In this document: piece after piece, positions 4,065-43,061 of the stretch
How the letters are laid out: each line of letters opens with the position of its first letter
Numbering within the stretch: position 1 is the stretch's first letter
Assembly: GCA_037447655.1 (NCBI GenBank)
Contig: JBBHKE010003430.1
Coordinates: 449,822 to 513,821 of the forward strand
DNA length: 64,000 nucleotides
Reading direction: 5' to 3'
Origin: Zygnema cylindricum
Taxonomy: Eukaryota; Streptophyta; Zygnematophyceae; Zygnematales; Zygnemataceae
Made by a program: the position numbers and the translations under genes
Notes under the pieces: model-generated
What the model was told of the DNA's origin: nothing
The model's input: only the letters and a program-made list of their open reading frames with translations
The model's database searches: none

Positions 4065-4065
4065 G

Positions 4066-5150: not shown

Positions 5151-5412
5151 GAGCAATTTGGGAAGCTCCACAAGAAGGATGGATCATCGACTCAGGTGCA
5201 TCCATGCATATGTGTCATGATCAGGAACTCTTCACTAAGCTAAGAAAGGTTCTTACTATAGAGATAGAGTACGGGGATGGGAGAGTGGTTACTATTGATC
5301 TAGTGGGGTCAGTAGATCTGAAAGTCTTAGTTGAGGGTAAGACTTCTATACTTACATTCTCAGATGTACTCTACATTCCTCAGATTTGTCTCTACGTCTG
5401 TGTTAGATGACA
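5151..5412 (+). pseudogene. Aspartic protease region, first B copy
   Basis: The motif WIIDSGASMHMC (DSGA at 5189-5200) marks the copia pol protease, which processes the polyprotein. It is followed by IEYGDGRVV, GSVDLKV and VLYIPQ. Just after VLYIPQ about 13 bases of the usual LSKNLIS stretch are missing, which shifts the frame before LDDK. The identical deletion is in the second copy (9143-9156), consistent with recent copying between them. Confidence 0.8.
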
Positions 5413-6767: not shown

Positions 6768-7807
6768 TGTAGAAACTAATGGTTTTTAAGTATTTTCTAG
6801 GTCTGAAAAAAAATATAGAAGCGAGGCAGTCTGTCTCTAACTTCTCTCTCCAACTCTCAAACTTGTCGCAGTCACTGAGAAATTGGAGAGGAAGCTAGAG
6901 CCATGGCTACCAAGGCTATCCTGAGGTTTACGAGAAATTTATATTAGTTCAGGTATATTTATTTAAAAGGTATGTGCCGGCGGCAGGAATTGATCCTTGT
7001 ACCTACCAGCCGGCAGACAGGACATAGCCGGTAGCCTTAGCCGTTAAGTCTAGGAGTCATGATACGTAGTATATAGTTTGATAGTTATTTAAATAGGTAT
7101 ACCTACGATTATTCATTTAACTATAATAGATTACGGGATACATAGATCCGGTAATATATAAAGTCCGGATTACGGTACGGACTATAAATCAATACCGCGC
7201 ATTTGTTTCGTAAATGAAACAAATACCGCACATGTATTGATTACGGCTACGATTAAATTAGATTCTAAATCGGACGGCCGCAATTAGCGCCGAGATCGCG
7301 GAGGAAGTTTTCGGCGGTTTGTGGCCATCGCCACATCGGATGACGCATGGCGAAATTTCGTTGGATCGTGGAATCCCTGGAGATTATGGCATCGAATCCG
7401 GATATAACATGTGTCGACATTTAGGCCTTGTCGTACAATGTCCGTACCTAAAGTACACCGGCAGCTGTACTTTTGCGTACGGAACTCAATTTTGATTGGT
7501 TCCGTACATCAGTAGATAGAGTCTGTGAGAGAGATAGGACTTAGAAAAATTAGGAGATAGAACCCTCTCTCCCAGAGAGCTTCTGTACAAAAGGTCAACT
7601 TTGACCCTCCATAACTTACTCGGCTGGTTCGCCGTTTTAAGTGATTCTTTTTGCTACGCACTCAACGGAGTCCACGCTGCACAAAGGTGCAGTCAATCTG
7701 TCATTTTGCCTTCATGGACAGTAGTGGTTGTGGCTTGAACTGGGTTAGTTAAATACTATCTAGAGGCTTCTTGTATTATGTGGTCCAATGGAGGACACAT
7801 AATTGCA
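6768..7807 (+). repeat. Chimeric LTR (F-type 5' part, B-type 3' part)
   Basis: From 6768 (TGTAGAAACTAATGG) to about 7617 it matches the solo LTR at 29937-30983 (reverse). From about 7611 to 7807 it matches the last 200 bp of LTR B (3868-4064). The switch lies at a shared CATAACTTA. It ends TTGCA before primer site 7808-7822. This join creates the tandem duplication of B internal sequence. An antisense tRNA-like box (GGATCAATTCC on the minus strand) lies near 6990. Confidence 0.75.
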
Positions 7808-8895
7808 GGTTATAAGCCCACCCTCTAGGGTACCCACCTTCAATGGATATGGGTTCATTTATTGGGAAGCCATGATGATAGGAGCTTTGTGCGAAAAACG
7901 ATACTGGGGTATCGTCAGTGGACAAGTGAAACGTCCACCTTCGGGAACTCCACCAGGATTTGGAGGAGTAAGGTTTCCTGCAGCAACGGCTGCCTTAGCA
8001 GTGGAGGCAGATGATGGGGACAGCAATGTGTCCGAAAAGGGGAAAGGGAAGGAGACACCCCTTACTCCTATTGCCACAGTACCAGGAGAGGCGACCGTGA
8101 AGACCACGGAGAACGATACTCAAATGTGGGAGGATGTAAACATGGTTGCCAAGAACTTCATTCTGAGGCACCTCACTCAAGCTTTGGCCACCCCTCATCT
8201 TCACATTTACAAGGCCGAGGAGTTGTGGGTGAGTTTGGTGGAGATTTATAGACCGGGGACTATTCAGGAGCTCCAGTTGGGTGAGCAAAAGCTAGTGAGT
8301 TACAGTTACAAAGGAGGAAAGATGTTAGATTACTGTAATGATCTTTCTTTTTTGTATATGGAGATGGATTGTGCCGGGTGGACAGGTACAATAAAAATGA
8401 AAGTTAACACCCTTATCATGAAGTTACCAAATGAGTAGGAGAACATAGTGTACCGAGTATAGGAAATGCCTAATAGTTCATGGAAATGGAACACAGTGGT
8501 CAAAATGATACTTGTGCAGGAAAACACAATGGAGATTAGGAGAGGAGGAAAGAGCATTCAAGCTTTAGCAACTAGAGGGGACCGATGGGGGAAGGACCTG
8601 AAGAAACCGTACAAAGGGGAAAAATATCATTTTGGAGGACCGAGGCCCCTAGAGGGTCTTTATCCTTTTTGCAAAAAGCCGAGACACTTCATCGCAGATT
8701 GTGTCAAGCTGTTGGAGCCAAGGCTCCCAGAGAACCGTGGAGGGGGTTCTTCCGGAGGGAAGAAAAAGGCACTTGTGGTTACAAAAGTGACAGGAGAAAT
8801 GGAGGATGAGTCTTCTGAGGAGGATGGGGAGCTTGTTCTTGACGAGAGTCTTGAGGAGAAGGAGACCCCTCAGAGACAGAAGTGTGCTATTTGGA
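7808..8895 (+). pseudogene. Gag, second B copy
   Basis: Almost base-for-base the same as 4065-5150 (offset 3743). The ORF 7803-8438 differs from 4060-4695 by three residues, and downstream I saw no difference. It shares the ATG-to-ATA start, the TAG at the same codon and the degenerate knuckle. Such shared defects mean that one is a recent copy of the other rather than independent decay. Confidence 0.8.
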
Positions 8896-9165
8896 GCAAT
8901 TTGGGAAGCTCCACAAGAAGGATGGATCATCGACTCAGGTGCATCCATGCATATGTGTCATGATCAGGAACTCTTCACTAAGCTAAGAAAGGTTCTTACT
9001 ATAGAGATAGAGTACGGGGATGGGAGAGTGGTTACTATTGATCTAGTGGGGTCAGTAGATCTGAAAGTCTTAGTTGAGGGTAAGACTTCTATACTTACAT
9101 TCTCAGATGTACTCTACATTCCTCAGATTTGTCTCTACGTCTGTGTTAGATGACAAAGGTCAGAA
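8896..9165 (+). pseudogene. Protease region, second B copy
   Basis: Same sequence as 5153-5412, including DSGA and the missing LSKN bases. It breaks exactly after the codons for LDDK, where an LTR remnant replaces the next 100 or so bases. Confidence 0.8.
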
Positions 9166-9292
9166 TATTTGTGTGCCTGGGCGGCGCTTATTCAGCGGGA
9201 AAGTAGAAGGGGCAAATATTATCCTAGAGGCTTTACATAGGCTGCTCATTCTGTGGGTCAATGGAGACCACAGAATTTCAAAAAGAAAAATG
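9166..9292 (+). repeat. LTR 3'-end scar inside protease/integrase
   Basis: The bases from about GTCAGAATATTTGTG to GACCACAGAATTTCA resemble the last 120 bp of a copia LTR (compare the solo LTR at 15529-15650 in reverse: cctggg..., tagaggctt, aatggagg-cac). It replaces the EFDTFTRKGVF segment present in the first copy. Probably a decayed solo LTR whose deletion took flanking integrase codons. Confidence 0.65.
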
Positions 9293-10532
9293 CTTACTAT
9301 GTTGGTCTTCCTAAGGTGATGATTTGGCATAAGCGGTTGGGGCATGTGCATTTTGATAGGTTGAAGGAAATGAAAATGCTTGGGGTAGTAGAAGGCATTC
9401 AGTTTGGGGATAATGAAATGATGGATGATTGTAGTGGCTGTGCTCAAGGTAAGGCTCACAAACTTCCCTTTCCCAAAGCTGCCACATATAGAGGTGAGAA
9501 AGTATTAGACTTGGTCCACAGAGATATTTGGGGAACTGCAAAAGTACCTTCCGTAAGAGGAAAGAGGTTTATGATGACAATAACCGATGACTGGTCTAGA
9601 TACTCTAGAGTCTACTTTCTAAAAACAAAGTCTGAAGCATCAACTTACTTTAAAGAATATAAAGCCTGAAGTGAGAAGTTGCATGAAACCCCCATTAAGA
9701 GGATAAGGAGTGATAATGGGGGAGAATATACCTCTAACCAGTTTGAGGAATATCTAAGAGATGAGGGAGTGCACCACTAGAAAATTGTACCATATAACCT
9801 TGAAACAAAATGGGGTAGCTGAAAGGTTGAATCGAACACTAAGAGATAGTGCATGCAGTATGTTGGCCGACAAGAAAATAGGAAAGAGATTTTGGGCAGA
9901 AGCAATGAACCGTGCGAATTACATTAACAATACAGTCCTTACCTCAACTGTAAAGGGAGTGACACCTTATGAGAGATGGGTTGGAAGGAAACCAGATATC
10001 TCACACCTTAAAGTATTCGGTAGGCAAGTTTAGAGTCTTGACATGGATAGGAAAAACTGGATCTAAGGGAAAACCTGGATACTTTGTGGGATATGATGAG
10101 GATTTCAAGGGATATAGAGTCTATGACTTAGCAAAGAAAGATATCATTCTGGTCAAACACCTAGTTGTCATGGATGAAGGTAAGTCATTTGACCCATTTC
10201 AAATATACAAAGAAGATAAAATTAGATTTGAGTCCGAGAGTGAGGAGAACTCGGTCGTTCCCAAAAAGGACATGAATTAAACCGTGATTGCAGATTCAAG
10301 GGAGATCCGAGATACAACAGACTTACCGGAAATCTCACATACTCCTATGGACTTCGAGGAGATAGAAGAAGTGGGACCAGAACCGGCTCCTATGGACAGG
10401 GGAGCCGATGAGACAGTGAGGAGAAATCCAAGACTTCCATCCATTCAAGCTTCGGAGTTTGAGGGAGGAAGGAGCAGCAAAATGATACAAGAAAACAGGC
10501 CACTCATAAGGTTACTAAGCTATCTCACCTAG
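9293..10532 (+). pseudogene. Integrase and linker, second B copy
   Basis: WHKRLGHVHFD and CSGCAQGK, then HRDIWGTA (first Asp kept), RSDNGGEY and GVAERLNRTL, GRKPDISHLKVFG, GYRVYDL, HLVVMDEGKSFDPF, and the linker RRNPRLPSI. Stops near 9667 and 9778, frameshifts near 9800, 10030 and 10190. It is clearly more diverged from 5520-6767 than the preceding gag/protease stretch is from its partner. It continues into RT, unlike the first copy. Confidence 0.8.
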
Positions 10533-11545
10533 ATGAGCCTCAGTCTTACTCAGAGGCAGTAAATAGTTTTGAGAAAGAAAGGTGGATTAGAGCCATAAAT
10601 GATGAGATGGCTTCGATCATGGAAGCAAATACTTGGGAGCTAACGGATTGTCCTCCAAACAAAATACCTATTGGGTGTAAATGGGTATTTAAACTAAAAT
10701 TGAACCCAGATAATACCATTGAGAGATATAAGGCTCGATTGGTAGCGAAAGGGTTTACCCAAAAGGAGGGGATTGACTATGAGGAGGCCTTTGCTCCAGT
10801 TGTTCGGTTCCCATCAGTAAGGATTCTCCTCAGTCTAGCTGCAGCGGAAGACATGGAAATGCACTAGATGGACATTAAGACAACTTTTCTTAATCGTGAG
10901 TTAGAGGAAGAAATTTTCACGAGGCAATCCGAGGGGTTCGTCAAGGCAGGAGAGAAGAGCAAAGACTGCAAGCTCATAAAGTCCTTATATGGACTGAAGC
11001 TGGCTCCTCGATAGTGGAATAAAAAACTAGATGAGTTCTCACTAGTCTGGGATATATCCAGATCAACTATGTTCATTCTATCTATATGTTTGAAGATGAG
11101 AATGGTGTCATTTTTATTGCAATTTATGTGGATGATTTGCTTGTATTGAGTAAGTTTTTGGAGAAGATCAATAGGCTAAAGAAAGATCTTAGGGGCAGAT
11201 TTGATATGAAGGATTAGGTGAGGCAAAATATATTTTGGGGATCGAAATGGAGAGAGATAGGGGGAAAAGGATTATCAGATTTACTCAGAAAGAAGCAATA
11301 GGTAATATGCGTGAAAAATTCCAGATGGAAAAGGCTAACTGTTGGACCACTCCCATAGACTTGAACAAAGTAAGTGATGGGAGTGTAGAAGGAGGAATGA
11401 TGATCTTAGATGATCAGATGAGTCCAGAGGAGAGAGAGTTTATGAAGTCTATCCCTTATTGACATGTGGTAGGAAGTTTGATCTATTTTATAAATTGTAC
11501 CAGGCCAAACATAGCGGCAGTAGTAGGAGTCCTCAGTAGGAGTCT
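10533..11545 (+). pseudogene. Reverse transcriptase of copia B
   Basis: RT with [56 protein letters not shown] and an intact YVDD (about 11125-11136, AIYVDDLLVLS). A TAG at 10865, a stop near 11012 and frameshifts interrupt it. The sequence ends in VVGVLSRSL at the AGTCT target site of element C. The missing RNase H half lies at 19389-19934. Confidence 0.85.
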
Positions 11546-19388: not shown

Positions 19389-19987
19389 AGTCTTAATGAT
19401 CCTTAGAAGAGAGATTGGGAGGCACCCAAGAGAGTCATGAGATATCAGGTAGGAACTAGAGAGTTATGGTTACATTTGGGAGGGGAGCACACTGATATCC
19501 TTAATTGGAGTGATGCCAGTAAAGGGGATGCACCTATGAGAAGATGCATTTCTGAATATGTTTCGTATGTGGGGGAAGGTGCTTGTTGTTGGAGCAGTAA
19601 GCAACAAAAGGTGGTTGCTCAGTCTACTATGGAGGCTGAGTGTATGGCCTCTTGTTCGGCTTTAAAAGAGTTGATGTGGGTCAAATCCTTGTTGCAAGAA
19701 TTGGGGTATATGAAGGAGGGATTGCATGAAGTTTTTTGTGATAATCAGGCTGCCATTGCCATTGAAGCCAATCCTAAACATCATTTCAAGGCTAAACATA
19801 TAGACATAAGATTAAGCTTCGTGAGGGAAAAAGTTGAAAATAAAATCATAAATCTTGTGTATAAATCCGATGAAGAAATGGTGGCTGACATGATGACCAA
19901 ACCTGTTTCCTCTCCAAAGTTAAAAATAATGTAGGAAAAAATGTGGATTAAAAGAAAAGTTAAAATTAGACTAGAAAATAAGGAGAG
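19389..19987 (+). pseudogene. RNase H of copia B (C-terminal half of pol)
   Basis: Continues B's pol after element C. NDP, then a stop (TAG) and KRDWEAPKRVMRY, WLHLGGEHTDILNWSDASKG, SSKQQKVVAQSTMEAE, VFCDNQAAIAIEANPKHHFK, and the end VADMMTKPVSSPKLKIM at 19934. From 19437 it is open for 165 codons. The purine tract CTAGAAAATAAGGAGAG (19971-19987) precedes the 3' LTR. Copied at 23924-24522. Confidence 0.85.
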
Positions 19988-23923: not shown

Positions 23924-24522
23924 AGTCTTAATGATCCTTAGAAGAGAGATTGGGAGGCACCCAAGAGAGTCATGAGATATCAGGTAGGAACTAGAGAGTT
24001 ATGGTTACATTTGGGAGGGGAGCACACTGATATCCTTAATTGGAGTGATGCCAGTAAAGGGGATGCACCTATGAGAAGATGCATTTCTGAATATGTTTCG
24101 TATGTGGGGGAAGGTGCTTGTTGTTGGAGCAGTAAGCAACAAAAGGTGGTTGCTCAGTCTACTATGGAGGCTGAGTGTATGGCCTCTTGTTCGGCTTTAA
24201 AAGAGTTGATGTGGGTCAAATCCTTGTTGCAAGAATTGGGGTATATGAAGGAGGGATTGCATGAAGTTTTTTGTGATAATCAGGCTGCCATTGCCATTGA
24301 AGCCAATCCTAAACATCATTTCAAGGCTAAACATATAGACATAAGATTAAGCTTCGTGAGGGAAAAAGTTGAAAATAAAATCATAAATCTTGTGTATAAA
24401 TCCGATGAAGAAATGGTGGCTGACATGATGACCAAACCTGTTTCCTCTCCAAAGTTAAAAATAATGTAGGAAAAAATGTGGATTAAAAGAAAAGTTAAAA
24501 TTAGACTAGAAAATAAGGAGAG
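23924..24522 (+). pseudogene. RNase H of copia B, duplicated copy
   Basis: Same 165-codon reading frame (23972-24469) as 19437-19934, with FCDNQAAIAIEANPKHHFK and VADMMTKP. The purine tract lies before the LTR at 24523. Confidence 0.85.
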
Positions 24523-25634: not shown

Positions 25635-26997
25635 TGTCGTGCATGTAACAAAAGAGATGGTAAACATGTAACACAATAAACTGGAAGATAAATGATAAAG
25701 AAATAAACAAAAAAGTCATGAACATCTAAAAAAGCAAGTGAAAAAAAATCTTTACAAGCACCAAGCAACAAATAAACATATCACAAGAAAAATAAAGGTA
25801 GGGTGAGAGAGGAAGCTAGTAGACTTAGTTTATTATTAGGCCAACGGATAGCCACTAGGCTCCTTGGTCAGTTTATATTCCTTACAGGAGTTCAATAAAT
25901 AAAGATTTAACCTAATATCACAACACATAAACTATAAATGTAGCAAACTGCGAGCGACTATGAGATAACCAAAATTATTCCCGCACAAAACATATAGGGA
26001 AAGCGAACCCTAATCCACTACCACTGAGTAAACCACACAAGCGAACCCAAAACTGTCCAATCACAATCGAAGGTTCAACAACAGCCTGAGAAAGAAGGTT
26101 GAGCAGCAATCCACTTGTTAAGAATAGAGAAGAAGTGAAGGGAAACCGGTTAGGCCTCAGCGTGAGCCGCGTAGATTAAATTGCAAGGCATATTAAAAAG
26201 AAAGGTGAGTGCGGGCTAGGCAGCAGAACGCTTAATGACCAGAAAAAATAGTCGCTAAAACTATCCTGACAATTTCACAAAAAAATAATGAAAACATAGG
26301 TCAAATCTTCCAAAAGAGAAAGAAAGAAAGAATGAATTCCTGTGCTCTTGAAATTGTGCGCACAAAATTCACATAAAATTCACTAAGTAGAAAGTCTACA
26401 GCTGCGCGTCTAACCTACTGTACATACATGCGTTCTATGTAGTCGTTTGCACCTAGTTTAGATTTTGGCCAATAGGCGACCAGAATCATATGCCTTACCT
26501 TACAAAATCTACAGCCTAAGGATAAAAACCCTTCCTACGCTACATGTGAATAAGTGAGACATCGAAGGGTCCACGACTTAAAATTAACCAATTGTGTCGC
26601 CGTGTGCAGACTGAATCTGAATCATCTGTTCGTCTGCATCATTTGTGGCTGTAGATGCTCGTTCGAATTTGCGTTGGTCTTGATATATTTACAGGTTGGC
26701 GTTTCAGTTTGCCAATCGTACGTACGAAACTTAAACTTGATCGCGGAAATTCTGGCGCCTAACGAATAGAGGTTTAGATTAAAATCTTGATCGCGCGGTT
26801 CACGGCGCTTGACAATTTCGCGTACGGACTCTAATCTGTACGACCTGCCACCACCAAATCCTACTAAACTCAAATTAGTAAGGCGTTGGTCTTAAAGGGC
26901 TTGTTTTATGCGAGTAAGTACGATTAAGTGCAATTAAAATGCAATTTAAATGCGGTTAAAATGCGGTTAAAATGCGTCGACGTGTTACGACATGACA
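25635..26997 (-). repeat. 3' LTR of the gypsy element
   Basis: About 1363 bp, TGTCGTGCATG to CGACATGACA. The part from about 25841 to 26997 is shared with 40810-41879 plus 47261-47343 at the other end. The outer 208 bp (25635-25840) are not found in the 5' LTR but recur at 27000-27206. Confidence 0.7.
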
Positions 26998-26999
26998 AA

Positions 27000-27206
27000 T
27001 GTCGTGCATGTATCAAAAGAGATGGTAAACATGCAACACAATCAGCTGCAAGATAAATGATAAAGAAATAAGCGAGAAAGTCATGAACATCTCAAAAAAC
27101 AAGTGAAATTAACTCCGTACAAACAGCAAGCAAAAAATAAACATATCATAAGAAAAATAAAGGTAGGGTGAGAACGGAATCTAGGAGGCTCAGTTTATTA
27201 CCCCCC
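27000..27206 (-). repeat. Second copy of the 208-bp LTR terminal unit
   Basis: TGTCGTGCATGTATC to CAGTTTATTA, similar to 25635-25840. It lies between the complete LTR and a C-run (polypurine tract on the minus strand). A third relative is at 37380-37579. Whether it is a remnant of a second LTR or a small repeat is open. Confidence 0.6.
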
Positions 27207-27249: not shown

Positions 27250-28809
27250 CTCTTAGCAGCCGTGATAAAACCAATGACCGTCCGAAACCGTTGTTAAAAG
27301 AGGAACCAAACACTCCATGTGAAATTCGTGGTTGCAATGGTTGCATAGAAGCATTGATGTTTCTCCGTCGGCTCGGTTGCAAAGTGTGCATTTTATAGCC
27401 TCAGTGATAGGCATACACATAGGGTCCATGTCCTGGGAGAGATTCGGTAAATAACATGGAGCGTAGTTCTTCGAAACCTCACGAAAGGTTCGCGTATCTG
27501 CTCCTTGAAGTCGTAGCAGGCCATTCGTGTCAACTTCGATAATTGGAAGAATATGAGGTGAAACATCTATGTTCAAGGTATCGAAGGATTGGCGCCGTAA
27601 GTAGACATAATCTCCCACTCGATAAGGCTTTTGCTGGGGCCGGTAGTTGCCACTGCGTGTAGTGGCAAAGCGCAAAGTATCCTGGTGTTGGGCGATGTGC
27701 AAGTTGTCAAAAGCCATGGGCATCTCTCGGGCAAAAAACATCGCCCTGTTAGTAAGTTCTTCCAGAAAAACCCCGTCAGACAAAAAGGGAAGCGGGAAGC
27801 TTGCAGCTTTTTGGATATTCCTACCCAACAAGGGTTGACGCCCAAATAAGACATAGTATGGACTGAAATTAGCAAGGCTCGCCTGTACGGATATTCGATA
27901 TCCCATGGTAATGTAACCGTGGGACTCGTCCCAAACTGTAACATGTTTCTCCAAACAATGCTTGCGTAATACTCGCTTGAAGGTCTGAACTGCACGTTCT
28001 GCCAATCCATCAGTCTGTGGATGATCTCAGCTTGTTCGACGATGGTCTATGAGTGCGTCATCTAGCATTTCTTGGAATTCTCCGCAGAATTTAGTCCCTT
28101 GATCTGTGAGGACTTCGGCTGGAGTGGCGTATCTCATTAGGACATGTTCCTTAAAAGCGGCGGTGGTGAGCTTTGCAGTTTTATTTGGTAACGCTACTAC
28201 TTCAACCCATTTGCTAAATTTTCAATCATGATCATTATATATTGGTTCCCCTCCGGGATATGGAAAAGGGACCTACCAAATCGCACGACCAGCGGTAAAA
28301 TAATCCCTTGATGGGCAATGGTTGAATGGTAATCTGACGAATGCTAAAAGAGGTGTGCATACGATCACACATTGCACAATTGTGCAATACTGATGCGACA
28401 TCAGATTGCATCCTTGACCACCAATAGCTTGTCTACAGCAAGCTTAAGAGGTGCGCTTGGTCCCATAGTGACCCAGCTCGATGTGAATTTGTTCGATCAT
28501 TGAGAGGCGTTCAGTCGGGCGAGGCACGTGTTTGTGACTACCGTCTGTTAACAATCGAACTAGCGATCCACCTAACCACAAATAATTTTTAGCTCTTTTC
28601 TTTACTTGTTCCTCCTCCTCGGATGTAGTGCCTTGTCGGAAAGTTTGTGAGGAGAGGAAAAGTATTAGTGCCCCGTCTCGCCATGGATCTGGGGTAGAAG
28701 GGGAGTTGGGCAGCGAAGCTAAAGAATGTGTGATATAAAACCCTGCGGACATAGTAGCTAAGTCGTCATCAAAATCCTGCCAGACTCCATTGTCTGTGGT
28801 CCTTGGCAA
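27250..28809 (-). pseudogene. Gypsy integrase with C-terminal PHD-like finger
   Basis: Inserts the cDNA into the genome. The N-terminal zinc part includes HIELGHYGTKRTS, followed by the core: WSCDLVGPF (first Asp, about 28275), VLTDQGTKF (second Asp, about 28105) and GLAERAVQTFKR (Glu, about 28000). A 250-codon ORF follows (28005-27253) with FSPYYVLFGRQP and a YRVGDYVYLRR module like GPY/F-type C-termini. It ends in a Cys/His cluster: CTLC, 11 residues, CNHC, 4 residues, H-x2-C, then GHWFYHGC and a stop. This is the PHD pattern C4HC3 with one Cys replaced by Tyr (W-x-C reads W-F-Y). PHD fingers read histone tails, so a targeting role is plausible but inferred. Several stops lie upstream of 28005. 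Confidence 0.85.
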
Positions 28810-29165
28810 AGGATTTCAGGAAATGACGTCTGCATTCAAACTAAGTAATCCTGCACGGTGAATTATTTCCTCATCATATTCTTGTAAAATTAATGCCTCT
28901 CATGCTAATTTTCCTGACATTTTATCGTTCGTCATCAGCCAATGTAAGGGTTGATGGTCAGTTAGAAGTGTAAACGGTTTTCTGTAAAGGTAGTGACGAA
29001 AGTGTACAATCCCTCAAATTGCTGCCAAACATTCTACTTCATAACTACTGTAATTTGACTCCGCACGATTATTACTTTTGCTTGCGTAAGCGACCACGTA
29101 TTCATCTCCTGTTAGTTCTCGCTGAGTTAAGATGACCGCAATGCCAATCTTTCCAAAGTCTGTTA
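28810..29165 (-). pseudogene. Gypsy RNase H
   Basis: Translates in pieces as VAYASKSNNRAESNYSSYE, CLAAI, GIVHFRHYLYRKPFTLLTDH, QPLHWLMTNDKMSGKLA and ALILQEYDEEIIHRAG, the classic Ty3/gypsy RNase H. At least three stops interrupt it, the first right after the RT ORF. Confidence 0.85.
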
Positions 29166-31290
29166 GTAGTCAGAAAGGTAATTTGTGATTAGGAGGTCGG
29201 AGAATTAGAGCAATAGAGAGGGCATCTTTCAACTTATGGAACGCTGAAATTTGATTAGGTCCCCAAACAAAAATAACTTCTTTCTTGAGCAAATCGTTCA
29301 ATGGTGAAGCGATAGTGTTGAAACTAGGAACAAACCGTCGATAATATTTAGCTAATCCTAGGAATGCTCGAAGACTCGTGAGATCAACGGGGGTTGGTAG
29401 TTTGCTGATTGCCTCGGTTTTTGCTTCAAGTGGTGTGATTCCCTTGGAGGGAATGAAATGTCCAAGGTAAACCACACCCTCGGACCCAAAAATACATTTA
29501 GATGGATGACATTTTAATCCGACCTTTTTCAGTTCAGTTAGGACCCATTCAATATGAGCTACGTGATCATTAATTGTGGCAAAGGCGATAATCAAATCTT
29601 CAATATAACATCGTGCAAACCTGCAACCACCTAACACTAAATCCATTACTTTTTGAAAAATTGCGGGGGCGTTATTAAGTCCAAAAGGCATTACAGACCA
29701 TTCCCAACGACCATCACTACCCCAAAAGGCGGTTTTATACCTATCTTTCTCCTCTATTTCAATGTGGTTAAAACCTTGTCGTAAATCAAAAATACTGAAA
29801 TATTTAGCTCCTCCTACATGATCAAATATTTCTTCGGCTAATGGCATTAGGTGTCGATGTTATATAGTTCTAGCATTGAGTTCATGGTAATCACCGCACA
29901 TCCGCCGATCGGTAAAGTTTCCTTTGACATTTTTTCTGAAACTCTAAGACCTCCATAAGTCCTCAGAGTGGACAGCTTCCAAGAAGCCTCTAGGATAATC
30001 CTGACCCCTTTGTGTTTAAGCAAAAATAATTGCCACCCTGGCAGACAAAAACTCTGACCACCTTCACCCTTGTGAAGACAAGACTCCCCTGAGTCGATAG
30101 CAAAAAGAATCTCTGAATTTGCTCCCCTGAGCAGTAAGTTATGGAGGGTCAAAGTTGACCTTTTGTACAGAAGCTCTCTGGGAGAGAGGGTCCTATCTCC
30201 TAATTTTTCTAAGTCCTATCTCACTCACAGACTCTATCTACTGATGTACGGAACCAATCAGAATTCAGTTCCGTACGCAAAAGTACAGCAGCCGGTGTAC
30301 TTTAGGTACGGACATTGTACGACAAGGCCTAAATGTCGACACATGTCATATCTGGATTCGATGCCATAATCTCCGAGGATTCCACGATCCAACGATATTT
30401 TGCCACGCGTCATTCGATGTGGCGTTGGCCACAAACCGCCGAAAAATTCCTCCGCGATCTCGACGCTAATTTCGGCCGTCCGATTAGAATCTAATTTAAT
30501 CGTAGCCGTAATAAATACATGTGCGGTATTTGTTTCATTTACGAAACAAATGCGCGGTATTGATTTATAGTCCGTACCGTAATCCGTACTTTATATATTA
30601 CCGGATCTATGTATCGCGTAATCTATTATAGTTAAATGAATAATAGTACGTATACATATTAAAATAACTATCAAACTATATACTACGTATCATGACTCTT
30701 AGACTTAACGGCTAAGGCTACCGGCTATTCCTGTCTGCCGGCCGCCAGGTACAAGGATCAATTCCTGCCGCCGGCACATACCTTTTAAATAATAAAACCC
30801 GAACTAATATAAATTTCCCGTAAACCTCAGGATAGCCTAGGTAGCCATGGCTCTAGATTCCTCTCCAATTTCTCAGTGACTGCGACAAGTTTGAGAGTTG
30901 GAGAGAGAAGTTAGAGGTAGACTGCCTCAGCTTCTTTCTTTCTATTCAGACCTAGAAAATACTTAAAACCATTAATTTCTACATTTTCCGGGGCATGATA
31001 GTGGGTGCTGCAAAAGTAGAGTCCGACCGATAAATGAGGCTATCTTCCTCCAATTCAGCGGAGCCTTGGTCCACTAATTATGATTCCGTTTCGGATAAGC
31101 AGTGTTTCGGCTTGAAAATGGGACGATTGTCTTCGAGATCTATAGATATTTAATAGGTGGTATGGCGACCAAGATCATTCATAGAGAAAGAAAACGCGTC
31201 AATATTCCGGAGAATCACTTCGTTTAGTAGGCCATGTTCAGATTGAGAGAGATTAGAGCCAAATTTCCATTTAGGAGTTTTTGAACCTTT
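29166..31290 (-). pseudogene. Gypsy reverse transcriptase, split by a solo LTR
   Basis: The N-terminal part (31290-30984) has AFSFSMNDLGRHTTY, then in another frame IDLEDNRPIFKPKH, ELEEDSLIYRS and AAPTIMPRK. After the solo LTR come the C-VIT-NSMLEL remnants of the CGDYRALN region. The 225-codon ORF (29847-29170) then has FSIFDLRQGFNHIEI, KTAFWG, MPFGLNNAPAIFQ, CYIEDLIIAF, LGHFIPSKGI and AFLGLAKYYRRF. YxDD reads YIED, changing the first catalytic Asp to Glu. RT copies element RNA in particles. Confidence 0.9.
29937..30983 (-). repeat. Solo copia LTR (F type) inserted in gypsy RT
   Basis: 1047 bp, TGAAACTCTAAG to AATTTCTACA on the + strand, flanked by identical TTTTC (29932-29936 and 30984-30988). 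It matches 6768-7617 and 51642-51807 in reverse. The antisense tRNA-like module lies near 30740-30775. No internal copia sequence remains, so it arose by LTR-LTR recombination. Confidence 0.92.
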
Positions 31291-31689: not shown

Positions 31690-32914
31690 TGCTGCAAATC
31701 CGAGGCCTAAGACAAATGAGTGAGATTAAGGGTCCATGACACGACCTAAAAGGATGCAGCGCTATCGTTATGTGAGACCATGGGCAGCCGTAGTGTTGGG
31801 AAAGAAATGCATAAGGTGTTTTCGTTATGTGGCTGTAGGTTCATCTAGGCCGCCTGCGTGAATATTTTTTGAGCAGGCCATGCCCATCGCCAGAGAAAGC
31901 GTGAGAGTGTGGATAAGATACTAGAGTAGGGAGAAATTTGAGTGGTTGACTTGATACATTGATGTTGTAATTCAGCGGGTGATGAGGCTATAGACATGTT
32001 TGGACTTTGTGAAAAGGAAAAAGTGCAGTCTGAAAATGTGTAAAAGGGGGTCTGAAAAAAAGATTTCCTTCTCTAAGGCGACCAATATCAATCAAGGTGG
32101 TCCATTTAGATCAGACCCGATGAGCTAAGGACCCGTGACGAGCGGCATCAATGATAAGAGGAGGACCAATTAATGCTTCTATCCGCTTGTAATCAGCTAA
32201 CACTCTAGGTCGAGGATCCTTATAGGCTACCACGTTATCCAAAATATATTCCAATGGTCGATCGAAAGATTGCAAAAAATGCATGATACGAAGTAATTCA
32301 AAGAATAATTTAGTGCGCGGATTGGCTAAGGCGAGACCTTTGCCCGCTCGTGACATTCTTTGGCACTCCCAACCGGCAAAGAGAAGATTGATTGGTTCCA
32401 CATCGAGAAGGTGTTGATTGCCTATCAAACGAATATCTTGAGGTAAGGCTGTATGCATGTGAGCAAAGGCAGATTTAGGGAAAAGAAGTTGAAATTGGCC
32501 GTGTAAAAGATCACACTGATGTGTCAGAGCTTTCCGAGATAAATGGTCAGTGTCAACTGGGTGGTAGTGATTGATAAGTATTCCGTTGCGAAGGCATGAG
32601 AGTAGAGAGGTACCTATGCCTGCGAATACGTCTAGAATGACCAGACCATCTTGATGAGGTTTGACCTGAACTGGCTTCCAACTAATGGGAAGAAAACCGG
32701 AAGGGTCTACAAAAATGAGAGGAAGAGGTGGAACTCGCGATAATGGAATCTGAAGTGTGTGTTTGTAGATGTCATCAAACGCGCGAGAATCAATTATAAA
32801 ACCTGGATTATCCAAAAGTTCAGGCAAAGAGGGACTGTCAGACAGAATTTCCTCGGCGGATAGAGAATGAAAAATTTCAAATCCCACCGAATTTCCGGAA
32901 TATGCAGGGACAGA
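31690..32914 (-). pseudogene. C5 DNA methyltransferase encoded by the gypsy element
   Basis: Would transfer methyl groups from S-adenosylmethionine to cytosine in DNA. The 258-codon ORF (32887-32111) carries DVFAGIGTS at 86-94 (motif I, SAM binding), VDTD at 111 (motif II), AGWECQRMSRAGKG at 161-174 (motif IV, catalytic Cys165, Pro-Cys reads Glu-Cys), RTKLFFELLRI, YILDNV at 204-209 (motif VI, ENV reads DNV) and AHRV-RSKW (motif VIII), where a TGA interrupts. Further down, in a shifted frame (about 31860-31690), FFPNTTAAHGLT, RCILLGRVMDP and FVLGLGFAARR resemble motifs IX-X. Upstream it is in frame with the protease except for one TAA. Related retrotransposon methyltransferases are published for charophytes and dinoflagellates. 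A host gene is unlikely given its place between PR and RT. Confidence 0.85.
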
Positions 32915-33510
32915 TTAGGCTGCGTGAGCCATAATGGGTATGGGTTGGCGTTTTGAAAGTAGAGGGAGACAAATTTTCTTTTCCGGATAATTAGCAGGAC
33001 GGTAGGAAAAAGTCTGATTGTACATATCAACGCCGCCTCCTACTCTGAAAATCACATCTTGCCCCACTAAACACTCGTAATCACTACATTTCCGCAAAAT
33101 CACATTATGTACCATTTTGAAACCTAAAACACAGTGGATTTTTTCTAATGCACAAAACTGGTTCGGTAGTTCCCGTTGAGGTGAGTAATCGTGTGTTGGT
33201 GGACTGACGTTTATCAGCTGTCAGACCTAGTTTCAGTGCAAAAGATGACCCCAAAATAATTGGTTTTGCACCGGTGTCCATAAGTGGTAATCACGGTATG
33301 ACACCATTGACTGAAAATGCACCCTTCCCATTATCTAGAAAACTGAAGTGTGGGCCAAGTGAACAACGCTCGTCGGTAGAGATAGGCCTAAGAGCGTCAA
33401 GATTACGTTTTAGTTGCAAAGCATGTAATGCTACAGATGGGATGGATGTGATGGTAGATTTAGGGTTGGGAGAATCGGAAATCATGGTAGATAAAATGCA
33501 CAATCTTTCC
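32915..33510 (-). pseudogene. Gypsy aspartic protease
   Basis: The catalytic MDTGAKPIILG is at about 33284-33250 (DTGA 33279-33268), preceded in frame by FSVNGVIP and a TGA (33294-33292) where CGA would give Arg. Then ALKLGLTADKR follows; after a frameshift near 33115, YECLVGQDVIFRVGG and a tail reach MAHAA at 32915. The frame runs on into the methyltransferase after a single TAA, so PR and DNMT were one polyprotein segment. Confidence 0.8.
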
Positions 33511-33876: not shown

Positions 33877-35295
33877 TTAGGTGGAGAGTTTTTTTTCTGA
33901 CTCTTTAACTGGCTGGACTACTTTGGCAGATCTAGCCGGTATTCCACCATTTCGAATCTGATTTTGATATGAAAATTCAGGGTTTTTGATGTGACAACAA
34001 TACACAAAGTGGCCGGCCTGTTTGAACTGTGTACAAGTCCCAGATTTATCCAGACACATCTGAGCATAATGCCCGGTTTTGCCACATCGGAAACAAATCC
34101 TATTTGATGGTTGATTTGGTGGGGTTCCCATGGCTGGGACCCTTAGTGGCCGATTATTTGGCCCCAAGTTACAAGGATTTGGTGAATTGAAAGGGTTAGG
34201 TTCTTGTTGAGGGGCTTTTGGTCGATCGTGGCCCTCCCACCAACAATTTGTCATCTCGTATTCTACAACGTATTGAGCTGCCTGGTCGAAAGTAAATTTG
34301 AGACCGTATGTTTGGGTAAGATGGCTTTGAATAATTTCTTTGAGTAGAAAGGAAACTGTCAAACAAACTTCTGGAAAGCTTCAGCATCTAGTATTAGATA
34401 GGGTAACGGTTCCCGCAAGGTCTCCATGCTGGCTCGTAAAGCGGGGGCTGTTTCGCCCGGTTTACGCTCAAAATTCATTAATTCTCTTACTTGGTCAGGA
34501 TTTTGCATGCGATACTCCTCTTGTAACAAATTAAACATTACAGTGAGAGGATCTCGTAATGGTACAGTCATCCCAGGACAAGTTGGGACAACGGCTCGTG
34601 CTACAATGGCATATTGATGGGGAACATTTGTAACAGCAAGACAAAGAACATTGTCGTGTGCATCTAAGATCTCCGGAATAACAGCTTGATAAGGAATTTT
34701 TGCTTGACCTATGACCTCTGGTATACCAACAAACTGTGGAGAATATTCGGTCATCGCAAGTATGCCATCATACTTGCGGGAATATAAGGTAAGAGCGGAA
34801 CCGCGAAGGTAACGCCCGAGAAGGGATAAAGCGACCCGCGTGTCAAATCTATCTTGATAACGGAAAGCTATATCTCGCATTTCAGTATGGAATAACATTC
34901 GAAAATGAGATAAACTCATAGTTTCCTTCATTCATGAAAAAAACATAATTGAAGTTTACCGGTAGTGCCCTCCGATGTGGAGGCCATCGAAAGAGATGAG
35001 TTAGCCGAATTCAAAGCCTGAATCAGTGCTAACGGAGACCAAAAACAAAGGAAATCTGAATCGGGTTCCCTTTCGTTATCAACCTCTTCCACATATAGCG
35101 TGGATAGAATGGATGACAAAGATGACATGGTGGTTAAATGTGAAAGAGTAGAGTACGCTCTAGATTCAAATAAAGGACTTAACGTCAAAGGAACCGAATT
35201 TGATAAATTTGATTGATCAAAATTTGTTAAACGAAGGTTCCACCACTACGTGTAGATCCGTATGAGTAGTCAAGATTATCCCAATCAGTGGGCAT
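33877..35295 (-). pseudogene. Gypsy gag with zinc knuckles
   Basis: Probable start ATG at 35295 (MPTDWDNLDYSYGS). It continues after a frameshift through ESRAYSTLSHLT, then ORF 34931-34359 (FHTEMRDIAFRYQDRF, LLGRYLRGSALTLYS, EEYRMQNPDQVRELMNF) and ORF 34362-33877. Knuckle 1, CFRCGKTGHYAQMC, is intact (about 34095-34054). Knuckle 2 has F for its second Cys (CTQFKQAGHFVYCC). The three ORFs overlap by a few bases, which indicates single-base frameshifts. About 470 residues in all. The stretch 33511-33876 down to the protease is a linker without recognised motifs. Confidence 0.8.
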
Positions 35296-35977: not shown

Positions 35978-36926
35978 TAAACTACTCGACCAGATAGTTC
36001 CTAGTCCATTTAGTTTTCCCACCAAATTTCATATAATAATACCAAACCGAATAATCACAACACTCAGTCAAAGTTGCAGAAAAACAGCTTGCCAGAACTT
36101 TGATAAATATGACCAACTTCACGATGAAGCCCCAAGCAAACCAGACACACAATAGGTCTGAAAATTCGCCACAATATTTCCAATACAAATAGTAACAAAC
36201 ATGCAAAATATCAGATAATTCTGCCAATAAAACTGAGAGCAATTCTCAGATGAAAATCCCAAAAATGAGCAGAAACAGTTTCTGTCCAAAAAGTTCCTAA
36301 ATCTAGAAATGACTAAGTCCTACAAATATACACTACAGCTTACTAATAACTGTACGGAGGCATACTAGCCGTACGTAATCAATCAAATACCTCTATTAAT
36401 GTGAGTGTACCTAAGATCTACACTAATAATTAAATACACAGGACAAAACATTGTTAAATATTTACACGTCGTACGAATTCCGTCAAACGAATCAGGACCG
36501 TCCAAAATAAATATCATGTGATGGACGCGATTTCGCGTCCCTCACCAAACTGACGGCGCTGCCGTCCGTAGCTCCAATGGCGTCCAATTCATCACATGTT
36601 GACCGCCGCATTATGTTTCGTACGGCCGACGTACAATTTAAATCATTTCGAATGTTAATCATCGGATCGCTTCGCGATCCGCCGTCCATTTCTCCAACAC
36701 ATTCAGCACTTTCGTTTATGTTTCTTCGCGTCACTTGAAGTCCAATTCCGTACGTTCAATACTCTTAGTACTTAGTACGCAAGTTGCTATAGCTGCAATG
36801 TGACCAGCGCAGCATGGCAACACAATATCTTTTTCATACATGCTGCTATGTCTACGGTGTGACCAGCGCAGCATGGCAGCATAGCAATGTGATATAGAGA
36901 GGACTAAAGGTTTCCAAAAACCAACA
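35978..36926 (-). repeat. 3' LTR of the gag-only element
   Basis: Strongly similar to 39324-40264. It ends AAAAACCAACA next to the pyrimidine run CTCCCCCAAACC. It contains two AGCGCAGCATGGCA boxes at 36815-36890. Confidence 0.8.
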
Positions 36927-37379
36927 CTCCCCCAAACCTTTAGACTCTCTCAGCCACTAATTCCACATTCTTCCCTTCTCCCCTTTTGTTCAACTGGTAC
37001 CATTGCTTCCGCTAACGTTACCACTGCTTCAACTAATTTCGTACATCTCAAGCAATTAGTACCATGACTCCCCCAATTCGCAGATCCATTCGAACCGCCA
37101 CAGTAAATCAAGATAGCATTAGAATATTATACTGTACCCACGAAACATTTTGTATGCACGAAACAACACGCCCTCACGAAACTGACTTTTCAAAACAACA
37201 CTCCCCCGAAAATTTAGTTTCGTGCATCTGGAATGAAATATGCCGCGTGTTAAAAATAACTGTACCTTTCCGTACCTGCAAATTTCCTCCCTTTTTCCCT
37301 TTCGTTCAAACGTCACCGCTGCTTCCGCTGCGCTGCGTTGCTGCGTTGCGACGCGAACTGCTTTTGCCGATTCACCACT

Positions 37380-37579
37380 GTCGTGCATGTGTCTAATCAA
37401 ACTAAGAAACATGCAACCTAACCAGCTAGCGAGTAAAAAACGTGGAATAGACAACAACAAAGCACATCCCGAAGCAAAAAGAATAATAATACAAAGCTAA
37501 AATGAATATGACAATGGAAAAATGAGATAATAGGTGGAAAGGATAAAAGGTGAAAGGTGAGTAGGAAGCCGAGAGAGAG
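37380..37579. repeat. 200-bp insertion related to the gypsy LTR end
   Basis: GTCGTGCATGTGTC to GAGAGAG, flanked by TTCACCACT on both sides (37371-37379, 37580-37588), a 9-bp duplication. Related to 25635-25840 and 27000-27206. No terminal inverted repeat and no coding potential. Confidence 0.6.
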
Positions 37580-37797
37580 TTCACCACTGCTCCAGCTGCG
37601 TTAATGCTCCAGCTTCCTTCTGCCATTTCTTCCAAAAATGCGTCCTCTCCAAAAACCATTGCTACCGTTGCCTCTTCTTGAGTCTTCAAAAAGAAAAAAA
37701 AAAAACTTTCTTTTCAACTAATTTAAAGAAAAACAAAATGCAAAATTCAAAATTTTACATATATTACTGAATTTTAATGGTAGTCACCTCCGTAAAC

Positions 37798-39230
37798 TTA
37801 CTTTTCACGCCGTCTTCTTTTAACCACTTTCGGAACATGTTTTCTTCTACTAGTGATCTTTTGAGTCCTGCCTGTTTTCTTTGTTTTCTTAATGAAATTT
37901 TGTGATTTATGTAAGTTTACATCTTTGTCACCGTTTTCTACCCTTTTAATGTCATGAATTCTAATTCCTGCCTTTTTCTTCACTAATCTATTCTTTCGGC
38001 TTTCTTTTCCTATTTTTCCAATTTTTGCAGTTTTATTTCGTTTTCCAAAATTACAAACTCCCTCTCTTACCCCAATAATCTGAACATTTTTCCTCTCATC
38101 TTCTCTAAGGTCATTAAATTCCACATCCACATTATTTTTCTGTTCCACTATCACTTCCTCATCTTTTCCTCCCACTCCTTTTACTTCACTTAACTCTCCC
38201 TCTTGTAAGCATTTTTCACTCACCAATCTGTCACCAGAAAAAGTTTCAAAAACCGCGTCCTTTTCTGTCTCCTTTTCCTCCACACCATCTTCGGTGACAA
38301 TTAGTTTTCCCCCTCTCTCCTCGTTCTCCATATTTCCAAAAATGACGGTCGGCAAATAAACAAATTTCTCGAAAGAAGGTGTAACCCTTTTATCTTCACA
38401 ATATTTCCTTGGATCAGTAAATGCATTCTGTTGCCTTTGTATAGGGGGCTGAACTCGGTTGTTGTCCCACCCTTCTCTGAAATTTCCTGTGAGACATGCA
38501 CTTTTATATAGAGGACATACCCTGAAAGTATGTCCTACATCATTACAATAAAAACAATTTTCTACCTTACAACTTCTCTTATTTCTTTAAACTGTGATCT
38601 GACACCTTGAAAATTCCCCCTAATCTTTAAAGCCTCGTTATTGGCCTCTTCTTCTAAAACACACCTGATTGCTAATTGTAAGTTCCAATCATTTTTATCA
38701 ACATGTTTTAATCTATCTAAATCACACCTATATTCCTTAGGTAATCCTTTCAATAACAGAAAAGCCAGTTGAGCATTTGTAAAGTTTCCACCTGCAATCT
38801 CATTTTCTACAAACAATATTTGTAACCCAATACAGTAATTCATCATACTACCTCCATCATACTTATACTCAACTATTTTTGTGACACTACTCATCCAGTG
38901 ATACACGGAAGTCTTTTGATATCCACATTCTAAGCACTTCCATAACTCAGCCGCACTTTCCAGATCAAGGTAAGTCAATACAAATTCCTCATTCAAAGAT
39001 AGCTTGATAATCAGCATACACTCATTGTTCTTCTCCTCCCATCCAACCGATGATTCAACACATGTCCCGTCCACCACATCCATTAGCTTCCTCGACTTGA
39101 AGTAGCTCTCCATCATACTCCTCCAATAGTAATATGTAGAACCATCAAATATGGGCAGGGTTGATTCATCCAAAATGGGTAGCCATGGGCGTGGGCCCAT
39201 AACCTGTTGTCCATAGCCCTTTTCAGCCAT
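37798..39230 (-). pseudogene. Gag with basic tail, gag-only element
   Basis: Starts MAEKGYGQQVMGPRPWLPI at 39230. The first codons lie inside the LTR and the frame then crosses the primer site. Capsid part: YYWRSMMESYFKSRKLMDVV, ELWKCLECGYQ, LLLKGLPKEYRCDL. A frameshift near 38565 precedes the knuckle CFYCNDVGHTFRVC (intact C-x2-C-x4-H-x4-C). The last 185 codons (38355-37798) are acidic and then very rich in Lys/Arg, ending KRRRREK. The tail may bind nucleic acid (inference). Homologous to 55675-57292. Confidence 0.8.
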
Positions 39231-40264
39231 GAATGTACCCTCGGAAGCACCACAGACTACCTCAAAACAGCCTCCTTTGATTCCACTCAGAATTCTACAG
39301 AATAACCAAACCAAACTGAAACTACTCAACAAGATATTTCCTAGTCCACTTAGTATTCTCACCAAATTTCATATAATAATACAGAACCGAATAATCACAA
39401 CACTCAGTCAAAGTTGCAGAAAAACACCTTGCTAGAACTTTGATAAATATGACCAACTTCACAATGAGGCCCCAAGCAAACCAGACACACAATAGGTCTG
39501 CAAATTCGCCACAATATTTCCAATACAAAGAGTAACAAACATGCAAAATATCAGATAATTCTGCCAATAAAACTGAGAGAAATTCTCAGATGAAAATCCC
39601 AAAAATGAGCAGAAACAGTTTCTGTCCAAAAAGTTCCTAAGTCTATAAATGACTAAGTCCTACAAATATACACTAAAGCTTACTACTAACTGTACGGAGG
39701 CATACCAGCCGTACGTAATCAATCAACTACCTCTATTAGTGTGAGTGTGCCTAAGATCTACACTAATAATTAAATACACAGGACAAAACATTGTTAAATA
39801 TTTACACGTCGTACGAATTCCGTCAAACGAATCAGGACCGTCCAAAATAAATATCATGTGATGGACGCGATTTCGCGTCCCTCACCAAACTGACGGCGCT
39901 GCCGTCTGTAGCTCCGGTGGCGTCCAATTCATCACATGTTGACCGCCGCATTATGTTTCGTACGGCCGACGTACAATTTAAATCATTTCGAATGTTAATC
40001 ATCGGATCGCTTCGCGATCCGCCGTCCATTTCTCCAACACATTCACACTTTCGTTTATGTTTCTTCGCGTCACTTGAAGTCCAATTCCGTACGTTCAATA
40101 CTCTTAGTACTTAGTACGCAAGTTGCTATGGCTGCAATGTGACCAGCGCAGCATGGCAGCACAATATCTTTTTATACATGCTGCTATGTCTGCGGTGTGA
40201 CCAGCGCAGCATGGCAGCATAGCAATGTGATATAGAGAGGACTAAAGGTTTCCAAAAACCAACA
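39205..40264 (-). repeat. 5' LTR of the gag-only element
   Basis: TGTTGTCCATAGCCC to AAAAACCAACA. The gag ATG lies in its last 26 bases on the coding strand. It shares its 3' end with the LTRs at 57655-58945 and 61678-62971, but the bodies differ. Confidence 0.8.
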
Positions 40265-40809: not shown

Positions 40810-43061
40810 GAATATTAAGCCAAAGGATAGCCACTAGGCTCCTTTGTCAGTTTATATTCCTTATGGAGTTCAATAAATAAAAATTTAACCTAATATCACA
40901 ACACATAAACTAAAAATGTAGCAAACTGCGAGCAAATCTGAGAAAACCAGATTAAGTCACACACAAAATATATAGGGAAAGCCAACCCTAATCCACTATT
41001 ACCCAGTAAACCACAAAAGCGAACCCAAAACTGTCCAATCACAATCGAAGGTTCAACAACAGCCTGAGAAAGAAAACTGAGCAACAATCCACTTGTGAAG
41101 GGAAACTAGTTAGGCCTCGGCGTGAGCCGCGTAGATTAAATTGGAAGGCAGATTACAAAAAAAGGTAAGTGCGGGCTAGACAGCAAAACGCTTAATGACC
41201 AGAAAAAATAGTCGCTAATACTATCTTGACAATTTCACAAGAAAATAATGAAAACAAAGGTCAAATCTTCGGAAAGAGAAAGAAAGAAAGAATGAATTCC
41301 TTTGCTCTTGAAATTGTGCGCACATAATTCACCTAAAATTCACTAAGTACAAAGTCTACAGCTGCTCGTCTAACCTACTATATATACATGCGTTCTATGT
41401 AGTCGTCTATGTCTAGTTTAGATTTTGGCCAATAGGCGACCAAAATCATATGCCTTACGTTACAAAATCTACAGCCTAAGGATAAAAACCCTTCCTACGC
41501 TATATGTGAATGCGTGAGACCTCCAAGGGTCCACGACTTAAAATTAACCAATTGCGTCGCCGTGTGTAGACTGAATCTTAATCGTCTGTTCGTCTGCATC
41601 ATTTGTGGCTATAGATGTGCGTTCGAATTCGCATTAGTCTTGATATATTTCCAGGTTGGCGTTTCGGTTCGCCAATCATACATACAAAACTTAAACTTGT
41701 TCGCGGAAATTCTGGCGCCTAACGAATAGAAATACGGACCCAAATCTTGATCGCGCGTTTCACGACCCTTGACAATTTCGCGTACCGACTCCAATCTGTA
41801 CGTCTTGCCACCACCAAATCCTACTAAACTCAAATAATTGAGGTGTTTGTCTTAAAGGGCCGGTTTTATGCGTGTAAGTCAAAACTCTATGTTCTCCATT
41901 GCCCACAGAAATCGTAGATCCAAAAGAAGCTAATCTAGACAATGCCGACTCTAAGTTGATATAAACCCAAATGACTCACCCCTTGACAATCAAAAACCCA
42001 TTATAGCTTCACCCCTGTGAAATAAGACTTTGTGTGTGCTTAGTTCCACCACAGAATGCAAAGTTAGAATATGAGTTTTGGACACATTCACCCACATTGA
42101 CTTTCGCTTAGAAATGCAGCCACCCTAGCAGGCAAAAACTCCACACGACTACATCCTTATGTAGCGTGGACTCCCTTAATCTGAAGCAAAAATAATCACT
42201 GAAAATGGTCAAGTAAATTGATAGTTATGAATGGTCAAAGATGACCTTTTGTACATGAGCTCTCTCGGAGAGAGGCCGCTACCTATTAAATTTTATAAAT
42301 CCTATCACTCTCTAAAACTCTATCTACTGACGTACGACACCAATCAAATTACTCTGGCGTACAGAAAAGTACATGTGGCGGTGTACTTTCTGTACGGCCA
42401 TCGTACGACATGGCCAAAATGTCGACACATGTCATATCCGAATTTGTTCTTGTAATCTCCGAAGTTGCTGCAATCCAACGTTGTCGTGCCACGTGTCACA
42501 TGACGTGGCACTGAGAGTAAAACGCCAAAAGTACATATTCCGTGATCGCGGCGCCTATCGTGGCTTTCTGATCAAAAACTGGATACAACTATAGCCGTTG
42601 AAAATATATACTCGCGGTATTTGTTTCATGTTCAAAAAAAATGCGAGGTATCCGTTTCATCTAATACATTAAAATCGTACAAAAATTGTATCTATGCATT
42701 ATGTATCTATATCCCGTTAAATGAACTAGTCTACGTGTGACAAAATAAATATTTATCAAACCTATTATATCCTACCACTAATTCTTGACTTATAGGTTAA
42801 GGCTACAGGCTAATTTGACGAACGGCAAGTACTTGCATCAAATCTTGGGTCTGTCAAACATTTTAGGTAACTCTATCAAGATTTGCCTTCCAGTCCTCTT
42901 TGGACAACCTAGGCAGCCATGGATCTAACTTCTCCTCAAGTCTTCAGTAACTACGACAAGTGTGGGGACTTGAGTGAAGAGTTAGAGGCAAGCTGTCAGT
43001 GTCTCCTCTTTTTGCTTTTATTTTACAATCTCTAGACCTAGAAAATACTTAAATTTCAACA

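Follow-up and report, generated by a model that had tools for sequence, protein, structure and literature searches.

A DNMT3-type cytosine-5 DNA methyltransferase within Pol of a Ty3/Gypsy-type retrotransposon family of Zygnema cylindricum

The window analysed here is a stretch of 64,000 nucleotides from the zygnematophycean alga Zygnema cylindricum (assembly GCA_037447655.1, contig JBBHKE010003430.1, positions 449,822 to 513,821). On its minus strand lies a member, old and dead, of a Ty3/Gypsy-type retrotransposon family whose pol region includes a DNA methyltransferase (DNMT) between the protease (PR) and the reverse transcriptase (RT). Judged by its sequence, the open reading frame (ORF) at 32114-32914 (minus strand) is confirmed as a genuine cytosine-5 DNA methyltransferase, and we hold the identity of both element and enzyme to be close to certain. 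The explanation as a whole, in which a DNMT within Pol and a PHD finger on the integrase (IN) would yield pre-marked complementary DNA (cDNA), is one in which we have good confidence. It is built on the anatomy of the element, the predicted fold of the enzyme, the conservation of a Glu-Cys motif, purifying selection and one recent-looking insertion.

The initial annotation, drawn from the sequence alone, had read a methyltransferase from its motifs, and DVFAGIGT, VDTD, AGWECQRMS-AGKG, YILDNV and AHRV do lie in the order described, all inside the 267-codon ORF; motif IV, AGWECQRMS, with Glu before the catalytic Cys, translates from 32351-32377. The C-terminal motifs SKW, PTLVSYPHSHAF and LLGRVMDP are also present, but behind a stop codon at 32111-32113 that cuts the enzyme off after AHRV and is missing from open relatives, and LLGRVMDP is in another frame. 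The domain thus extends over 31690-32914 (minus strand), of which only 32114-32914 is open. This ORF matches PF00145 (E=7e-6; 26.1 bits against a curated cut-off of 22), and its best match among solved structures is DNMT3A (E=3.7e-5). As had also been claimed, it shares its frame with the protease ORF, from which a single stop (32915-32917) separates it, and lies upstream of RT (RVT_1, 2.4e-24, in ORF 29170-29859). Since L018 and L033, two relatives of this copy, lack the stop between PR and DNMT, we attribute that stop to decay and reject programmed readthrough at this place.

In the element DNMT, motifs I, IV, VI and VIII and the C-terminal motifs follow in unrearranged order, and the predicted fold is DNMT3-like, a likeness in fold and motif order to the catalytic domain of human DNMT3A/3B. 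The human proteins, however, are free-standing host enzymes with Pro-Cys and share about 23% identity with the element DNMT. Because the latter has Glu-Cys, with no Pro before the catalytic Cys, we describe it as a divergent DNMT3-type domain and not as a canonical DNMT3. Plant DRM2 is DNMT3-related, but it has a rearranged motif order, and its chains match positions 48-187 of the 421-position profile, about a third; the element DNMT is collinear with DNMT3A, without circular rearrangement, so a DRM methyltransferase was rejected.

The element is not confined to the window. A PF00145 search of the assembly (352.8 Mb, 2689 contigs) scored 123 of 782 candidates, about 85 of which, by reading, have no stop inside the match. 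The 40 entries examined represent 38 distinct loci. All but one, 39 entries or 37 distinct loci, are element copies, and they fall into two families; the remaining entry, L007, is a host exon, which we take to be chromomethylase-like. Family 1, that of the window, has 16 distinct loci, and family 2 has 22 entries in 21 loci. A complete, uninterrupted DNMT is present in 14 entries (13 loci); in the others the domain is broken or partly covered, and some frameshifts may be assembly errors. L009, L011 and L015 are relatives of the window copy with an open DNMT, and the closest copies are L018 and L033 (89% each). Some copies have open gag-PR-DNMT-RT-RNase H-IN frames, and at one family-1 locus the open frame is at least 2321 codons long.

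Pro-Cys is the usual motif IV of DNMTs. The suggestion that Glu-Cys is a family feature and not a product of decay proved sound: it is readable in 15 of the 16 family-1 loci (GWECQ in 13, GSECQ in one, and a stop replacing Trp in one; L029 gave no match when motif IV was sought) and is conserved in open copies. The parallel suggestion for DNV failed, as DNV is peculiar to the window copy; the other readable family-1 loci have ENV, among them L018 and L033, or ENI (twice) or ENN (once). In a 36-row alignment, in which the window copy is not included, the catalytic Cys (C115) and the Glu of ENV (E157) are invariant and AHRxR..W is kept at >=90%. Pro before the catalytic Cys was found neither in the window nor in family 1, and it is kept in family 2, where all 22 entries read GWPCQ.

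Family 2 differs in another respect. An in-frame UAG CAA UUC stands between PR and DNMT in 13 of its 22 entries, including L001, L002, L003, L006 and L012; it is variant in two, out of frame in two and missing in five. This sequence resembles known leaky-stop contexts, and the conserved UAG is a candidate for programmed readthrough that would set the level of DNMT-Pol. In family 1, the open copies L009, L010, L011 and L017 have no stop at the corresponding position; L015 has one nearby.

The layout of the window element was obtained by DNA comparison with other copies and by repeat searches. It reads, on the minus strand, A1, leader, gag, PR, DNMT, RT, RNase H, IN, PHD, B1, A2, B2, and its PR-DNMT-RT order is backed by open copies at other places in the genome, whose DNA is collinear with it. 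The gag gene (33880-34954) includes a CCHC zinc knuckle (zf-CCHC, 3.8e-4, at the cut-off of 20.8 bits) and is collinear with L014/L016. The aspartic protease (32915-33300), which closes with the in-frame stop mentioned above, was recognized by eye from its DTGA motif, and its ORF at 32915-33220 gave no Pfam match. RT occupies 29170-29935, and RNase H and the DDE integrase, in degraded frames, occupy 27400-29170, collinear with L009 7511-9990, where RT_RNaseH, Integrase_H2C2 and rve match. To the initial annotation we add a PHD finger at the C-terminus of the integrase (27268-27390; PF00628, 3.9e-7), a pattern found also in L010, L011, L014-L017 and L020. Beyond its stops and frameshifts, the copy is broken by two foreign insertions. 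One, in the leader, is a nested long terminal repeat (LTR) element (35979-39618; terminal repeats 35979-36278/39319-39618, 95%), which splits the leader matches of L014-L016. The other is a repeat of about 1.05 kb (29936-30983) that splits the start of RT; the L018 match crosses this site without it, and it is present elsewhere in L018 and L001 (85-91%).

The repeats follow the DIRS-like plan A-coding-B-A-B. A1, the 5′ LTR-like repeat (40813-41879), has 88.9% identity to A2 over 1086 bp, its outer ~80 bp being unrecognisable; B1 (27000-27200) has 87.6% identity to B2. A2, the 3′ LTR-like repeat (25834-26999), matches A1 over 25834-26919 and begins TGTCATG directly after B1, and B2 (25635-25835), the outer 3′ end of the element, terminates in CACGACA. 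All four are on the minus strand. Because A1 and A2 differ by 11% and B1 and B2 by 12%, we consider this copy old. Its 5′ end has A only and its 3′ end A plus B, with the second B upstream, so that two whole LTRs at the ends were not found. The B1-A2 joint equals both outer ends placed end to end plus two extra bases, and, as in DIRS elements, it would serve as an internal template for completing both outer ends. On contig C829 there is a copy whose A repeats (1388 bp) agree at 99.64% and whose B repeats (190 bp) agree at 99.5%; its outer ends are TG...CA and, read by eye, AAGG stands on both flanks. Both kinds of repeats were seen in C449 (94% and 96%), and in C1407 the B repeats are 98% alike, the second A being outside the compared stretch.

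Despite these repeats, a DIRS retrotransposon was rejected: in the open frames of L009 and L012, Pfam found no tyrosine recombinase (PF00589), whereas rve and Integrase_H2C2 are present. The domains are those of Ty3/Gypsy elements, with the order PR-RT-RNase H-IN (RT to IN by Pfam in L009 and L012, the protease by the DTGA motif), a DDE (rve) integrase and an RT nearest to Ty3, the RT of L009 having that of Ty3 as its closest match in PDB (9e-79). We say Ty3/Gypsy-type because there are no two whole LTRs, as is done for a published Klebsormidium element whose repeats are arranged likewise.

That element is KnitGypsy-Dnmt3 of Klebsormidium nitens, for which de Mendoza et al. 2018 (PMC5890265) describe, in the part of the paper available, Gypsy domains and repeats "same as that of a DIRS". 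The window element is like it in having a Dnmt3-type DNMT without DRM rearrangement in a Gypsy Pol, DIRS-like repeats, no introns and purifying selection. A DNMT in a Gypsy Pol together with A-coding-B-A-B repeats is what defines the KnitGypsy-Dnmt3 group; this combination supports the kinship with charophyte gypsy elements that had been proposed, as far as anatomy can place the family. The protein searches returned no relative named as K. nitens. In the available part of PMC5890265, neither a Glu-Cys motif nor a leaky-stop sister family is mentioned, and "PHD" has no occurrence in its text, in contrast to the PHD finger here. SymbioDIRS-Dnmt3 of dinoflagellates, as far as described in the same source, also has a DNMT3-type DNMT in Pol and A-coding-B-A-B repeats, but with a tyrosine recombinase and DIRS domains in place of the DDE integrase and Ty3/Gypsy domains of the window element. 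DNMT-carrying retrotransposons are therefore a kind already known from de Mendoza et al. 2018, and the available parts of a 2025 survey (PMC12344493) and a 2019 opinion paper (PMC6338049) mention, respectively, retrotransposon-embedded DNMT3s and DCM-encoding elements. For the Glu-Cys motif, or for a DNMT and a PHD finger in one element, no report was found by title and abstract start in a partial coverage of the literature. As far as searched, then, the following are apparently new: conservation of a Glu-Cys variant, an element that combines DNMT and PHD, the presence of both families within one genome, and the spread in green algae.

The DNMT of open copies is under purifying selection, as read from the ratio of nonsynonymous to synonymous change (dN/dS), which is 0.11-0.36 where measurable. 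Among 15 family-1 pairs, dS could be measured in four (dN/dS 0.16-0.32), and the other 11 had saturated dS with dN of 0.11-0.16; 19 of 28 family-2 pairs gave 0.11-0.36. These pairs are not independent, since L006 and L013 are one locus and L008 and L021 are identical.

Outside the genome, a protein profile search returned 136 relatives, and the figures that follow are from the 120 listed. Named sources are Dunaliella salina (P0061), Closterium (P0089) and Pelagomonas (P0095; possible contamination). Motif IV is readable in 101 and not in 19, and the residue before Cys is Glu in 91, Pro in eight, Lys in one and Ala in one; the excess of Glu-Cys is favoured by the query, which was built from Glu-Cys sequences. 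Two layouts occur among the long relatives. In P0126, P0089 and, by eye, P0015, the DNMT follows PR as in the window family; in P0123, P0127 and P0131 (the DNMT of the last being below the Pfam cut-off), it lies between RNase H and IN, with PHD after IN. In the second layout a tail of 317-419 residues follows the PHD pattern in P0123, P0127, P0128, P0129, P0131 and P0132, and one of 169 in P0130. It appears faintly methyltransferase-like by eye, and no Pfam match was obtained in P0123, P0127, P0128 and P0131.

A DNMT tree of 57 rows was computed without motif IV, from 44 sufficiently complete relatives among 131 with a detectable domain, nine genome copies and four outgroup rows. P0015, P0024 and P0126 fall with family 1 (100/99); a second group (100/99) unites the remaining 41 relatives, including every second-layout protein in the tree, and family 2 is apart. 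The same three groups come out of an RT tree of 18 rows, which does not settle their branching order. Both trees would fit either a single capture after which the DNMT moved within Pol, or two insertions that had the same donor. Two changes between Pro and Glu are needed on the DNMT tree, P0130 (GWPCE) being uncounted. The branch joining the two Glu-Cys groups has a support of 90/42 only, which makes a single change no more than likely. The relatives named Closterium and Dunaliella, together with the second layout, suggest that the capture happened once and long ago in green algae, though the key branch is weak. It is tempting to propose that PHD-bearing Gypsy elements captured a DNMT3 once, in ancient times, and radiated in green algae, with a single change from Pro-Cys to Glu-Cys, continued selection and two places in Pol; we regard this history as nearly as probable as not. 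A prokaryotic or viral origin was set aside, as scans of viral and genome contigs gave no confirmed relative, although, with the window ORF used for confirmation, remote relatives may have escaped. Among the matches listed (10 of 117), phage Dcm-like enzymes reach E-values down to 2e-14 against an open copy at <30% identity, and three of them stand with DNMT3A beyond one branch (100/99), the root having been set by hand. A phage-like ultimate origin of the DNMT is possible.

What would an element do with such an enzyme? Because the DNMT is part of Pol, we infer that it would be packaged with RT in the particle, where it would methylate the freshly made element cDNA before this integrates or as it does so. 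The integrase would be directed to a chromatin state by the PHD finger, and the joint outcome would be a pre-marked copy, tolerated or left alone by the host. Methylation of cDNA in the particle, a proposal from anatomy, is plausible, although we think it somewhat likelier to be wrong than right. Several observations weigh against it or against the explanation that includes it. Glu in place of the usual Pro beside the catalytic Cys may mean that activity is altered or lost. The RT controls of the same copies indicate that the DNMT is constrained slightly less than RT: dN/dS of DNMT and RT is 0.16 and 0.07 for L009-L017, 0.13 and 0.09 for L012-L013, and 0.34 and 0.30, and 0.49 and 0.36, for further usable pairs. 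Pairs with frame-broken copies gave 0.32-0.49 for DNMT and 0.30, 0.36 and 1.14 for RT, the last (L014-L016) on almost no change. L014 and L028 apparently have one DNMT frameshift in common and differ at 26/953 DNMT positions, so that a lineage without an intact DNMT seems to have multiplied, perhaps helped in trans. The ratio of observed to expected CpG is 0.87-1.05 in family-1 loci, 0.63-0.70 in family 2 and 0.69 in the whole window, and for family 1 strong CpG depletion as a signal of methylation is rejected. Finally, the B-A-B layout was not seen in the repeat comparison of C2577.

The loss of activity may be taken further, in that the Glu-Cys enzyme would no longer methylate DNA and would be kept as a cytosine- or nucleic-acid-binding module, or would methylate element RNA or the tRNA primer. 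In its favour are the Pro-Cys of DNMTs in general and of all four outgroup rows, and the predominance of Glu in the listed relatives, with the bias of the query already given. In addition, the Klebsormidium domain gave no methylation in a yeast assay, which its authors deem inconclusive in the part of PMC5890265 available; the result counts against our main explanation too. On the other hand, the invariant Cys and Glu, the conserved AHRxR..W and the predicted DNMT3-like fold argue for an enzyme, and Pro-Cys is kept by sister family 2, which shares the genome and the slot in Pol; we judge this alternative unlikely, though it deserves attention. Still less probable, in our opinion, is that the target of the DNMT is not the element's own cDNA but competing elements or the host chromatin flanking the insertion. 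PHD fingers commonly read histone tails, and one is encoded here at the integrase end, as this alternative would have it; the place of the DNMT upstream of RT in Pol points instead to the particle. That a host DNMT gene copy came to lie between element pieces by chance fusion or assembly artefact can practically be dismissed. The window copy, with its stops and nested insertions, could by itself give that impression, but this reading is refuted by loci on separate contigs that have the same PR-DNMT-RT order, several of them in a single frame, and by the PR-DNMT of P0126 and P0089, which come from other sources.

Some further observations concern the surroundings. The nested LTR element of the leader has Copia-gag-like ORFs by eye and is possibly a gag-only Copia derivative. 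At 4060-11000 of the window there are two Copia-type ORF sets (starts 4060 and 7803), apparently near-identical and likely a recent duplication; ORFs of equal length and same start at 19407-19931 and 23942-24466, Copia RNase H-like by eye, are apparently a duplicated fragment. In the genome, GRAS gave 27 exon matches, which together with the chromomethylase-like exon indicate a streptophyte; the plant telomere pattern was met four times only, on two contigs. The available part of PMC9915684 reports a PHD family at least 9-fold larger in Zygnema cf. cylindricum SAG 698-1a; this expansion could consist of element integrase PHD fingers and not of host regulators.

Transposons are the main targets of plant DNA methylation, and an element with its own methyltransferase reverses the usual arms race. 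Here a Glu-Cys and a Pro-Cys family share one genome and one position of the DNMT in Pol, both include copies with an open DNMT, and one family-1 insertion looks fresh, which makes it possible to test what methylation by an element-borne enzyme does. The wide Glu-Cys clade questions the need for Pro before the catalytic Cys and, if the history of capture, radiation and retention proposed above is true, there would be a functional, catalytically altered class of DNMT confined to mobile elements.
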